Below, one piece after another: positions 42,090 through 46,083 of a stretch of DNA of 64,000 nt. The first letter of the stretch is position 1, and each line of letters starts with the position of its first letter. The position numbers and the translations under genes were made by a program. The DNA is from Branchiostoma floridae (taxonomy: Eukaryota; Chordata; Leptocardii; Amphioxiformes; Branchiostomatidae): contig NC_049979.1 of the NCBI RefSeq assembly GCF_000003815.2, forward strand, positions 12,438,766 to 12,502,765, given 5' to 3'. The notes beneath the pieces are model-generated. The model was not told where the DNA came from and searched no databases. It saw only the letters and a program-made list of their open reading frames with translations.

Positions 42090-45000
42090 CTATCTTCTCA
42101 TTAACACCTTTGACACCAGCTGAAACATCTTCACTCTAAACGATAGATAGATGATGTAGAGATTCCTCTTATACCACTCCCTGCAAGAAGAAAAAAAGAC
42201 AGATAAGATCATCCTAGTTATTTTTCTAATGTCTAAAGACATGGATGAAACAATACTGTGCTTTGAGCAATATAACATTACGGACAAATCATGTTCCCGT
42301 TCCTATGTCAGACTTCCTATATACATGGTACATGTACATGTATATAGTCTGGTATCCACCCCATCCTTGCTTATGCTTGTTCAATCACTTTCCTTGCTAA
42401 ATAGTCTGGTACCTGTTATGATAAAAAGGATTGGCATTGGATTCTGGAGTTCTGATTGGCTGAAGTAGAGTTCTGAGTGTAGTGTTCTGAGTTGGAACTA
42501 TACAAGGTTACAGGGTTTGAACAGGCATTTAGAAGGTTTCGATCCCTGTTTCACTGCTTCACAGAAATATTTGATCATGAATTTCCAAATTATGAAGGAC
42601 AGAGTGACCAAACATTTTAATGGAAACAGGGTGCCAGACTTTTCTTCAGAGAAGTGATCAGAGGAGCGAGACTGAGCTAGAGTAAGACGGATACCAGACT
42701 AAGACTTACCGCTGATACTGCAGCTGGCCATGCTGATGCTCAGTCAGAAATGTCCTGTAAAACTCAGACATGTCCTCAGCTGGAGGCATTCTCTTACTTC
42801 CTATTAGGAGAAAACACAGTCAGAGGTTTTACAGATATACATAGAGTATGTATGACAAATGCTTGTGAAAAGCTCATCTAGGTCAACCCTCAAGGTAGTA
42901 CATGTAGTACAATTTCATACAGCAGGATATGGGTGAAAAAATTAAGACTTGTGATCTTAGAAATGAACTTAGTGAAGACTCACCATCAGTGTGAACTGAC
43001 TTGAAATCCTCCTTTTCCAACCAGCTCCTGATAAAGTCTGCCTTCTCCTGTAGGTCATAGCATTAAGACAAGATACTTAAAATTCAAATCCAGATCAAAC
43101 ACAAACAAACTGTTTTTTTGCCAATATTTCAGCAACGTTTTGGCTAGCTACTTTCTTCAGAGTGTGTTTCATCCTTGTGGCATTGTGACATAATGACTGG
43201 GATACAAGGATTCCTAACACCACTAGACTCGGATAATCCCTTCTGCTTTTTGAGGTAGCATGGGTGTGGTCACATTTAACGTTACACTATGTATTGATGA
43301 ACCTGATGAAACTAGTGCCATTTTAAGTACATGTACTTATGGAAGGAGTCTGCCACCTTATTAAACTGCTGGTTGTGGTTGGACCAGAATTCCTGGTTCC
43401 ACTTCTGTGTGTCTGCCCTGAGCTGTCTGAGTCTCTCCTCTGCCGCTGACTCTCCCGTGGGAACCCTGAACTTGATGGGTCTGAGGTTGGAGCTGGGGTC
43501 TGCTGGGCCGATCCAGTCATGAGCCATCTGGGACTGGGGTGGGGGCTGGGCAGCTATACCAGGAACACTGGCCTGCGAGACAATCAATGAAGAAAAGATA
43601 AAGCAGACATCCTCAGTTGAAGTGAAGCAAGATGCTTTGCTATACATTTTCAGACAAGCACACTTACTTACCCCTACCCTGCTCCACGGGTGTGTTGGGT
43701 TCCTTTCTGAGAAGAGGTTTGAATCCTGAGGCTGATACCTCAAGCTCCCATATACATGTTCACAGCTGCCTGCTTTAATTATGTCATCATCCAAAAAGAC
43801 TCATGCAACATCTCACAGCATGCCCTTGCAGGGTTTGAATCAATGAATACTGGCGTAACCATTTCAAAGTAAAAAGCTCTTTACATTGCATTTTAGTACT
43901 CACTCACTCACTCACGGCCCGTAACCTATTTAGTACGGCCCGCATTTAAATTTTTAGTACGGGAAATATTGATAACAAGGCTTCCCATGTTCATCCATGG
44001 ATATAGTTCACCTTTATCCGTGGGGCATTGCAAGTATACAAAAGTAACGGGTTCCGCACTGGTGTTCCAGTGCTGAATAAATGGGTCGAATCGGCCTCAG
44101 CACTGGTTTTCCAGTGCTGAAGAAACGTCAGCACTGGTTTTCCAGTGCTGAAGAAACGTCAGCACTGGTTTTCCAGTGCTGAACGGCCTTGTTGCAGTGC
44201 TGAAGCTCCCTCAGCACTGGAATTCCAGTGCTGAACTTTTCCGAGCACTGGTTTTCCAGTGCTGAACTTTTCCGAGCACTGGTTTTCCAGTGCTGAACTG
44301 CCGTCAGCACTCGGGTACCAGTGCTGAACTTGCGGCGGAGAGGCGGCGAGCCAGTTCAAAGGTCATTCAGCACTGGTTACCCAGTGCTGAAACTGGCGTC
44401 AGCACTGGAACCGAGTGCTGATATACAAAAGTAACGGGTTCCGCACTGGATTTTCCAGTGCTCGGGAACTTTTCAGCACTGGAAGACCAGTGCTGAAAAA
44501 ACTTCAGCTCTGGGCTTCCAGTGCTGACGATTATAAAGCACTGGAACGTTCCAGTGCTGAACGTAATATTCATTCGTAGCATGCGTCCGTACGGCTGAGT
44601 TATTTCCTTTCGACTTGTTACCTTGTTTGGCGGAGATTGACATTACACATGACATTGACAACAACAGTTTTATTTCATGAAATAATGAAAGAATAAAAAG
44701 AGGCCGTGACTTTGAGCTTTTATTGAATTGTGTGAATGTGATAGATATAGCCCTTTCGGGAATCATTTCGGTGGCCCTGAATCATTTGCGTTTTTAGTAG
44801 TTCTTTTCATCGACTGTATACATTTTTCAAACAATTGAATAAAGAAAGAGATACAGTTCAGACACAACTTGTACCATTACGTGACAGCTCACGGTTTATA
44901 GTCGACACTACAAGTGCGGTCCCTCTTGTTGTAACTAAATTGGGACCTTCCAATGACCTTTGGCCAAGAAAATTAAACGTTAGACGATGGCGTTACATGT

Positions 45001-46083
45001 GAGGTGAATAAGTAATGGACCATGTTTACGGCTCGAGCTGCGGTAGATATCTATGTATATAACGTTACCACAGTTGTTTTGACAAGTTACTAACGTGATT
45101 GAAGACGTTTTAGACAGGTTAATTTCGTTATAATTGTAAACAGCAGCTCATGCCGCCTTGAGTCGTGTCGCTAGAGTCTGCGGCTTCAGCACTCGGTTTC
45201 CAGTGCGGAATATTTGTCAGCACTGGATTTCCAGTGCTGAAACGTCCTCAGCACTGGATTTCCAGTGCTGAAACGTCCTCAGCACTGGATTTCCAGTGCT
45301 GAAACGTCCTCAGCACTGGATTTCCAGTGCTGACAGGAGGACATTCAGTGCTGAAGCTGCCTCAGCACTGGATTTCCAGTGCTGACGGCGGCTCAGCACT
45401 GGACTTCCAGTGCTGACGGCGGCTCAGCACTGGAAATCCAGTGCTGACGACCACTTCAGCACTGGTGTTCCAGTGCTGACAGAGGAGACCGTTACTTTTG
45501 TATATTTGCTGGGGCATTACCTATATCCATAGTATTTTTATATAACGGGTGTTGAGTATTATATGTGGCTGATTAACGTGGTCGAGGCGCCTCCTCGAGC
45601 TCCAGCACGGAATCCCCATTTTATGTGCCTCCCGGAAGACGATATAAAAAAGCCTGGTATTTAGGAATATAAAAATTAATATAGATGAAATAGCGTTATA
45701 TAATGTCCCTAATGCATCTTTTGCATGCAGTCTTATCGCCCTATTTATAAGATTGCATGCAAAACAATAGTCCTTGAATAGACCAAGGAGGTTAAAATAT
45801 TATAGACTAATCCTACAACAGTGGCTCGCGGCTAGACATTTACGGGGTTAACCATGACAGAGGTATTTGTGTAACGTTATATATGGACAGAAAGAGTTTT
45901 AACTTCCAACACGGTAAGACTAAAAGACGCAATACCACAAAATACTACCACTTCCAACAATATAATAGCCAGACGATCCCGACAAGTTAACGTTACCTTT
46001 GTTTGTCCTTTTCTCCTGCCAGCCGTGCGGGTTTTCCTGACGGCAGCGTGTGCGTTCCTTGCCGTACAGAAGGATCGAATCAT
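42090..46083 (-). CDS. COA8: COA8 (APOPT1): mitochondrial cytochrome c oxidase assembly factor 8
   Basis: COA8 supports complex IV assembly in the mitochondrion and is lost in a human COX-deficiency leukoencephalopathy. Five minus-strand exons (46083-45997, 43572-43357, 43047-42984, 42800-42710, 42180-42090) join in phase to 182 residues plus TAG. Exon 1 gives a basic presequence (MIRSFCTARNAHAAVRKTRT). The core matches human COA8: HDWIGPADPSSNLRPIKFRV, RLRQLRADTQKWNQEFWSNH, MPPAEDMSEFYRTFL and REWYKRNLYIIYLSFRVKM (human DWIGPPDKYSNLRP, WNQQFWANQ, YNRDWYKRNFAI). Human COA8 is 206 residues. Intron 1 (43573-45996) hosts the palindrome-array element. The gene is head to head with the K/S-rich gene about 800 bp away. 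Confidence 0.95.
44021..45518. mobile_element. Palindrome-array element with 9-bp TSD in COA8 intron 1
   Basis: The element is 44030-45509. Its ends GCAAGTATACAAAAGTAACG and the inverse of GCAAATATACAAAAGTAACG form terminal inverted repeats, and identical 9-mers TGGGGCATT flank it (44021-44029, 45510-45518). Two arrays (about 44048-44560 and 45184-45480) contain about 23 copies of a 22-24-bp perfect or near-perfect palindrome of the form CAGCACTGG-N4-CCAGTGCTG at about 31-bp spacing, plus two half copies. The 4-bp loops and 7-10-bp spacers vary, with TTTT/ATTT loops commonest. A second internal copy of the subterminal sequence (ATACAAAAGTAACGGGTTCC) occurs at about 44424. The 44560-45184 centre is unique and AT-rich. 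It has no coding capacity. Confidence 0.88.
45719..45764. repeat. Short hairpin in COA8 intron 1
   Basis: TTTTGCATGCAGTCTTAT and ATAAGATTGCATGCAAAA form inverted arms around a short loop, just outside the palindrome-array element. Confidence 0.6.

Follow-up and report, generated by a model that had tools for sequence, protein, structure and literature searches.

The window analyzed in this study comprises 64,000 nt of the Branchiostoma floridae genome (GCF_000003815.2, contig NC_049979.1, positions 12,438,766-12,502,765 of the forward strand) and harbors a 1,480-bp element at positions 44030-45509. On both flanks, the identical 9-bp target-site duplication TGGGGCATT is located (44021-44029 and 45510-45518, plus strand), as had been recognized in the initial annotation of this region. 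The element is bounded by terminal inverted repeats, namely the G-type end GCAAGTATACAAAAGTAACGG on the left (44030-44050, plus strand) and the A-type end GCAAATATACAAAAGTAACGG, read on the minus strand, on the right (45489-45509). The 21-bp inverted ends described previously are present and match each other at 20 of the 21 bases. Screening for palindromes revealed 23 units in two arrays, of which 14 belong to the left array (44054-44559, loose criterion) and nine to the right array (45187-45478); both arrays additionally contain a lone right half-unit CAGTGCTGA (44195-44203 and 45346-45354, plus strand). Furthermore, the left array encloses an internal copy of the end sequence (44422-44449, plus strand). 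This 28-nt direct repeat of positions 44035-44062 consists of 16 bp of the inverted repeat and the start of the first unit. Inverted pairing was found between the left and right arrays, which pair, though not strict inverted copies, because each unit is a palindrome. The arrays account for about 54% of the element, so that its earlier description as mostly consisting of two arrays holds for the arrays as such but has to be adjusted for an interior of approximately 620 bp devoid of units. This interior (44563-45183) lacks coding potential; its two flanks recur, mostly at 93-99%, in other members of its subfamily, and its middle differs. On the minus strand, a COA8 domain is encoded at 43336-43521, some 0.5 kb away from the element; the latter may be located upstream of the COA8 transcript.

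The unit was defined as the 24-bp palindrome TCAGCACTGG-N4-CCAGTGCTGA with a conserved arm of 10 bp. A strict 22-mer search allowing up to three mismatches yielded 20 matches in the window, all within the element, compared with 0.02 expected from shuffled sequences; allowing loops of 2-7 bases (the loose criterion) led to the 23 units and the lone half-units of both arrays. The number of about 23 palindromes and their spacing, mostly 31 bp, agree with what had been reported before. Centre-to-centre steps are often 31-32.5, 42, 44, 52 or 63 bp and hence near whole helical turns, with a helical-phase figure of R = 0.895 over eight spacing classes, in which related spacings are treated as independent. 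The register of 31, 52 and 63 bp is maintained across subfamilies, and the 52-bp step around the lone half-unit recurs in 23 of 24 left arrays (not in L055; shifted in L059). Moreover, neighboring units have spacers in common, e.g., in runs with AAGAAACGT or AAACGTCCT, indicating local duplication.

Across the genome, exact matches were counted for the palindrome (838), the G-type end (72) and the A-type end (68), with about 42 further places carrying ends with one mismatch; the reversed control of the G-type end was found nowhere. Among the 45 copies in which both ends were read, 32 feature a perfect 9-bp duplication and 39 agree at eight or nine of the nine bases. None of 1,980 mismatched left/right flank combinations used as a control reached 8/9, and nine reached 7/9. 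Only a duplication length of 9 bp fits, no copy being compatible with 6-8 or 10-12 bp, and the 31 perfect duplications tabulated out of the 32 all differ in sequence, which rules out a satellite or single-locus artefact. Copies range from 77 to 9,863 bp in length. Perfect duplications are borne, for example, by a 7,773-bp copy at C191:84476-92248 and by a 290-bp copy containing little beyond the ends and seven units. Unit counts in 24 copies range from 9 to 13 in the left arrays and from 4 to 11 in the right arrays, except for L059, which was counted as having 2 and 12 since a long insert mis-splits its arrays; considering the whole family, one to about 14 palindromic sites are present per end. 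A second inverted-repeat copy with one to three mismatches is also present in many other copies. Identity of two copies over a stretch of 822 bp points to recent activity, and the family is sizeable and apparently recently active. Common ends, exact 9-bp duplications and the occurrence at many loci identify the window element as a non-autonomous cut-and-paste (TIR) DNA transposon. The initial proposal of a transposable-element family with variable unit number was therefore borne out within the same genome, where many copies share the ends.

Regarding sequence conservation, the information content of 420 units amounts to about 1.4-2.0 bits per base in the arms versus about 0-0.4 in the spacer core. 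Conservation of the arms had been claimed before and is evident here, but the loops, described as variable, are not free, as T occupies their last two positions in 84% and 83% of cases, respectively. Changes common to several copies were observed at 0.225 per site in arms versus 0.371 in spacers (p = 0.013), and the 21-bp end showed no such changes; changes seen once amounted to 0.685 versus 0.808 per site (p = 0.26), and the test of shared versus single changes was not significant (p = 0.11). Arms accordingly change more slowly than spacers, but the contrast between arms and spacers is modest, the copies are related by descent, and arms of degenerate units were counted as spacer. Within 3,780 arm base pairs, one side was changed in 226 cases and both sides in one, this double change not being complementary. 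Many of the 226 pair-breaking single changes were inherited by whole unit lineages.

Part of the family carries a histone-type 3'-end stem-loop in its interior. It was detected by pattern search in 13 of the 55 loci read, a count leaving out two weak one-mismatch matches (L060 and window position 1234). Alignment of the window element to these 13 copies, most of which also match RF00032, uncovered a remnant of the module on the minus strand (44727-44781), of which 44773-44781 represent the 3' half of the stem-loop and the rest the sequence downstream of it. The RF00032 score exceeded the Rfam cut-off in L058 and L061, was just below it in seven more loci and was weak in L059 and L021; L062 and L063 gave no RF00032 match at E-values up to 0.0002, though the stem-loop is present by pattern. 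At the gathering threshold, Rfam yielded no match in window positions 43800-45800. Other Rfam matches mostly concern microRNA families far below the cut-offs; many of these lie within the palindrome arrays and were interpreted as fold mimicry. A histone gene was rejected as the source of the stem-loop: L102 and L103, which match the stem-loop region, provided no evidence for histones, neither as a Pfam match in L103 (551 bp) nor by eye in the frames of the remaining sequence, and palindrome units were absent from their 1 kb.

Copies of the family were screened for transposase domains. The 9,863-bp copy (L065) was dismissed as an autonomous element, as its six frames lack Pfam matches and its extra 8.8 kb represent an unrelated nested repeat encoding nothing in Pfam; large parts of this repeat occur at about nine further sites, with smaller parts at additional ones. 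Of the 29 remaining open frames that lie outside the arrays and reach at least 110 aa, 28 were scanned (all but L049:1277-1717), and these encode no transposase domain, the only finding being reverse transcriptase in L006 and L049. Both the 4,198-bp copy (L049/L066), whose frame is a nested reverse transcriptase, and L006, a diverged locus measuring about 4 kb and also containing a reverse transcriptase frame, were discarded as autonomous candidates. In the interior of the window element (L018), no frame outside the arrays reaches 110 aa. In the genome, the MULE domain PF10551 was found at 27 places, with a minimum distance of 31.7 kb to the listed exact ends, and the Merlin IS1595-type transposase PF12762 at three places, of which only one is on the contig of a listed end, at a distance of 336 kb. 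No MULE or Merlin gene lies beside the listed exact ends. The P-type transposase PF12017 gave zero matches, as did its control. Target-site duplications of the P superfamily measure 7-8 bp, compared with 9 bp in the window family. The presence of MULE-domain frames differs from the outcome of a 2019 survey, in which no MULE transposases could be recovered for the Florida lancelet (PMC6446971). The same source specifies MULE target-site duplications of 8-11 bp (PMC6446971), a range that includes the 9 bp determined here. Moreover, long composite ends, a variable number of short tandem repeats and the ability to fold back correspond to the Foldback (FB) type. The family is accordingly regarded as non-autonomous and of the foldback type, its superfamily being unproven.

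Based on these features, a non-autonomous foldback-type transposon is proposed that is probably moved in trans by a MULE, with the palindromes as putative docking sites for a dimer. A MULE-like transposase supplied from elsewhere is the most likely mover because of the 9-bp duplication and the architecture, and the 24-bp palindromes would most likely dock a dimer of this transposase or of a partner protein. Units about three helical turns apart would place the dimers on one face of the DNA. As the units are self-inverse, any unit gained through tandem duplication could serve either end in either orientation. Furthermore, recombination between left and right arrays could delete the interior and generate miniature copies, the interior representing dispensable, variable cargo that includes the histone-type stem-loop in part of the family. 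The perfect duplication of the 290-bp copy suggests that ends and arrays are sufficient in cis.

Three other roles of the arrays were weighed against this proposal. It is very improbable that the palindromes act structurally, as DNA cruciforms or RNA hairpins, a role put forward in the initial annotation. The RNA fold of the right array is extremely stable (-218.1 kcal/mol, z -19.15), as any such array must be, yet none of the 3,780 arm pairs has undergone a compensatory double change, pair-breaking single changes persist, and GNRA and UNCG tetraloops are not among the common loops. The related suggestion that hairpin RNAs arise from the array within the COA8 pre-mRNA is unproven. Arm changes uncompensated on the other arm instead favor binding of a dimeric protein, which, judged from sequence, is the best-supported of the roles initially suggested. 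A neutral origin, in which slippage or unequal exchange multiplied a short end palindrome lacking any role, also appears improbable. Spacers shared by neighboring units, variable unit numbers and the non-significant test of shared versus single changes would fit such a by-product; however, plain duplication would keep arms and spacers alike, whereas spacers diverged and arms did not, both between units and between copies, and the register is maintained across subfamilies.

Somewhat less doubtful, though still unlikely, is a host dimeric transcription factor or chromatin protein as the ligand, aiding transcription, chromatin state or repair. Arms conserved in sequence rather than structure fit any sequence-specific dimer, and no transposase was found in the scanned copies. 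The 290-bp copy, however, retains ends and palindromes together with a perfect duplication, as would be anticipated if these sequences were required for transposition, and tandem repeats in the foldback ends of Galileo hold additional transposase sites, according to the report on Tetris (PMC4079207). Docking of the transposase or its partner is therefore preferred. The family offers a natural series of ends differing in site number, in copies from 77 bp upwards, and the question why foldback transposons expand their end repeats becomes directly testable. A self-inverse unit would solve a simple problem, since a single tandem duplication yields a site that works irrespective of its orientation.

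More surprising is the histone stem-loop. According to the description of Tm1 of root-knot nematodes, the motif was previously known only from replication-dependent histone transcripts (PMC3169594), and its recurrence in another family of the foldback type, this time from a chordate, makes capture by chance harder to accept. As a speculative and rather improbable explanation, foldback/Mutator-like elements of two distant animal lineages, root-knot nematodes and this chordate, may carry the stem-loop since their parents use or used histone mRNA 3'-processing, which would couple transcripts of the transposase or the element to S phase; in the lancelet family, this would be combined with ends of palindromic, helically phased putative dimer sites.

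Among known elements, those of the Mutator/Foldback group come closest, including nematode Tm1 and mosquito Muta1. The FB foldback element of Drosophila also possesses long ends with tandem repeats, which measure 31 bp. A literature search covering titles and abstract openings retrieved no description of this lancelet family and no palindrome array of this length. The initial statement that no family of this design had been described thus fits the long palindrome array, as far as this search reached, but is too strong for the overall architecture, as foldback-type Mutator elements with short-repeat arrays in their ends have been reported (Tm1, PMC3169594; Muta1, PMC5225508). Drosophila Tetris and Galileo likewise possess long ends with tandem repeats; Tetris also has no known autonomous copy but features repeats of about 220 bp, and Galileo differs in belonging to the P superfamily (PMC4079207). 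The MULE-like Rehavkus group shares the 9-bp duplications and has a minisatellite before one end; it differs in that the minisatellite is confined to this end, in its PHD-finger transposase and in its hosts, given as arthropods and annelids (PMC6446971). Plant MULEs with tandem terminal repeats have long ends, with a palindrome array unmentioned in the abstract, and resemble the window element in an end sequence duplicated inside one end, as at 44422-44449 (PMC3310237). Muta1 of Aedes aegypti, an active MULE that its authors assigned to the type 2 foldback elements, shows 8-9-bp duplications, ends with nine subterminal tandem repeats and more than 300 putative non-autonomous derivatives, which often vary in repeat number and enclose foreign sequence; it differs in its 12-bp repeats, not described as palindromes, and in its known transposase, active in yeast (PMC5225508). 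Tm1 differs in units of about 14 bp (CGATTCAGTATCGC) versus the 24-bp palindromes spaced 31 bp, in the outer motifs CGGTTAA/CCTACCC and the 14-bp motif C, from which the lancelet ends and units deviate, and in a copy with a Phantom-type transposase, none being found in the scanned lancelet copies (PMC3169594). Tm1, especially Tm1-HH, nevertheless shares with the lancelet family the 9-bp duplications, composite ends in which the number of short tandem units varies, asymmetry of the outer ends, a predominance of non-coding copies and, in Tm1-HH, the interior histone hairpin in part of the family (PMC3169594).

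The transposable element recognised in the initial annotation was delimited as a 1,480-bp segment at positions 44030–45509, located approximately 0.5 kb to the 5' side of a minus-strand exon (43336–43521) in which the COA8 domain begins; the match there starts with position 1 of the family model. One copy of TGGGGCATT was observed on each side of the segment, and 20 of the 21 bases of its inverted-repeat ends match, confirming the perfect 9-bp target duplications and 21-bp inverted ends described initially. A strict search tolerating at most three mismatches to CAGCACTGG-N4-CCAGTGCTG returned 20 matches, every one within the element (0.02 in shuffled sequences), and allowing loops of 2–7 bases yielded 23 palindromic units, as first estimated, together with lone half-units in the left and right arrays. 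Both arrays keep an odd step of 52 bp that is due to a half-unit, and the outer end is repeated once inside the left array.

Screening of the 513-Mb genome placed this element in a genuine multi-copy, non-autonomous transposon family, representing an already-known kind of element that differs in its unusual end design. Exact 22-mers numbered 838, with none in the reversed control. The outer 21 bases occur exactly at 72 places in the G-type form (left end of the window element) and at 68 places in the A-type form (right end). Of the end pairs, 14 were read as short pieces, and each of these combined one end of either type; the two ends are therefore distinct and stable. Among the 45 copies with both ends read, which leaves out loci where one or no end was recognised within the stretch fetched (e.g., L005, L007 to L012, L014 and L015), the 9-bp duplication was perfect in 32, and flanks matched at eight or more of nine bases in 39 and at seven or more in 41. 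In the control comprising 1,980 left and right flanks from different copies, none reached eight and nine reached seven. Lower values were obtained for L016, L026, L045 and L076; judging by the flanking sequence, the duplication of L026 and L045 seems to be shifted by 3–4 bases rather than absent. The 31 perfect duplications tabulated (all except that of L059) are all different, and no strict target was seen. Multiple copies with common ends and 9-bp duplications, named as support in the initial annotation, were thus found, as was the variable unit number: left arrays hold 9–13 and right arrays 4–11 units in 24 copies, except in L059, where splitting the arrays by the largest gap fails.

Copy lengths range from 77 to 9,863 bp, and a 290-bp copy with seven units still features a perfect duplication. 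At least two subfamilies are separated by their unit pattern; within a subfamily, the interiors have both flanks in common, and their central parts vary. L062 and L063, which are more diverged, possess arrays but no recognisable ends. Identity over 822 bp between two copies indicates recent movement. With a self-inverse palindrome, recombination between the two arrays would be possible in direct orientation; the arrays of the window element are indeed alike as direct repeats (82% over 147 nt), and such recombination could explain the origin of miniature copies. The 77- and 141-bp copies on contig C323 (L096, L097) consist of two ends enclosing one or three palindromes, with duplications matching at 7 and 8 of 9 bases, and possibly arose by array-to-array deletion.

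Concerning the role of the palindromes, the conserved positions TCAGCACTGG and CCAGTGCTGA carry approximately 1.4–2.0 bits per base, compared with 0–0.4 bits in the spacer core (420 units, 24 copies). The loop is not free, since T occupies its final two positions at frequencies of 84% and 83% among units. A structural role, i.e., palindromes acting as hairpins, would predict matched arm changes. Among 3,780 arm pairs (units with more than five mismatches left out; inherited changes included, the events therefore not being independent), 226 were changed on one side and one on both, none being complementary, and broken pairs persist through whole unit lineages. Between subfamilies, arms diverge less than spacers (left 2.4% vs. 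6.8%, right 5.7% vs. 11.9%, as pairwise counts with common ancestry). In 32 left ends, with arms of degenerate units counted as spacer, changes common to at least two copies affected 45 of 200 arm sites and 108 of 291 spacer sites (p = 0.013), and none fell within the outer 21 bases; the contrast was smaller for single-copy changes (p = 0.26), and the direct test between both contrasts was not significant (p = 0.11). This pattern weakly suggests the trace expected of selection at the time of movement.

Furthermore, frequent steps between unit centres (31–32.5, 42, 44, 52 and 63 bp) approximate whole DNA turns, the spacing classes behind this fit being few and related to each other; such steps would suit dimers placed on one DNA face. 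Because arms are conserved without compensation, shared changes follow the above pattern and spacing is close to helical, we prefer the reading that the array serves to dock a dimeric protein, most probably the transposase, to binding of a host factor, to arrays as a neutral by-product and to hairpin formation. Among the roles proposed initially, the dimeric-protein binding array was accordingly retained on arm conservation and spacing, and the hairpin lost ground for want of complementary changes. A docking role is what we infer from these sequence patterns.

Transposase was detected in no frame of the 9,863-bp copy (L065). Of the further 29 non-duplicate frames outside arrays with a length of 110 aa or more, 28 were scanned, likewise revealing no transposase; reverse transcriptase alone stood out, in L006 and L049. 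Positions ~324–9120 of L065 represent a nested 8.8-kb repeat without Pfam matches, a large part of which recurs at nine or so places and smaller parts at more. The best candidate left for a copy with coding capacity is one of 7,773 bp (G000:C191:84476-92248), which is bounded by a perfect 9-bp duplication. The MULE transposase domain PF10551 was detected at 27 places in the genome, and at 12 of these it lies in an open frame of 350 aa or longer without internal stop; the place nearest to any listed exact end is 31.7 kb away from it. In a 2019 MULE survey (PMC6446971), duplications of 8–11 bp are given and no MULE transposase is reported for the Florida lancelet, in contrast to the 27 places observed here. 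Judged by its architecture, the family would work like a foldback MULE and likely belongs to MULE, the superfamily we infer.

Moreover, a stem-loop of the histone 3'-UTR type was observed in element interiors. Pattern scanning located it on the minus strand of interiors in 13 of 55 distinct loci, some read in part only, against 3.6 such loose hits in shuffled sequence of the same length. Scores for Rfam RF00032 (gathering score 34) in these 13 loci were 37.1 bits in L058 and L061, 33.2 bits (E ~5e-6) in L019, L020, L023, L025, L026, L027 and L031, 22.2 bits in L059 and 19.5 bits, partial, in L021, with L062 and L063 giving no match at E up to 0.0002. Weak pattern hits in L060 and at window position 1234 were not counted. 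The 16-mer is identical in 11 of the 13 copies. Across them, 2 of the 16 stem-loop columns vary, compared with 22 of the 40 columns before it and 11 of the 40 after it. In 10 copies, an AATAAA motif is present within 64 bases downstream. The window copy (L018) retains a remnant on the minus strand, a 55-bp interior piece at 44727–44781 found again at several other places; the 5' half of the stem-loop is lost, with the junction at ~44781, and neither this copy nor L022 matched RF00032 at E up to 5. Since perfect duplications also occur in copies without the stem-loop (e.g., L017, L029, L042), it is not needed in cis. The same module occurs outside palindrome elements at L102 (G000:C16:12654000-12654450; 31.5 bits), where no palindrome units were present in the 1 kb read. 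A second match lies 4.4 kb away in opposite orientation, and others on C2, C5, C14 and C17; no histone gene was found beside the stem-loop at L102/L103.

Among known elements, the active mosquito MULE Muta1 is described with nine subterminal 12-bp repeats and more than 300 putative derivatives (PMC5225508). Tm1 is a Mutator/Foldback family of nematodes that shows 9-bp duplications and ends composed of 14-bp units in variable number; one class of it also carries a histone hairpin (PMC3169594). Identity with Tm1 was rejected, since sequences and unit design differ. In architecture, Tm1 is nevertheless unexpectedly close to the palindrome-array family, its Tm1-HH form also having the histone stem-loop, and this histone signal common to both is the point most worth following.
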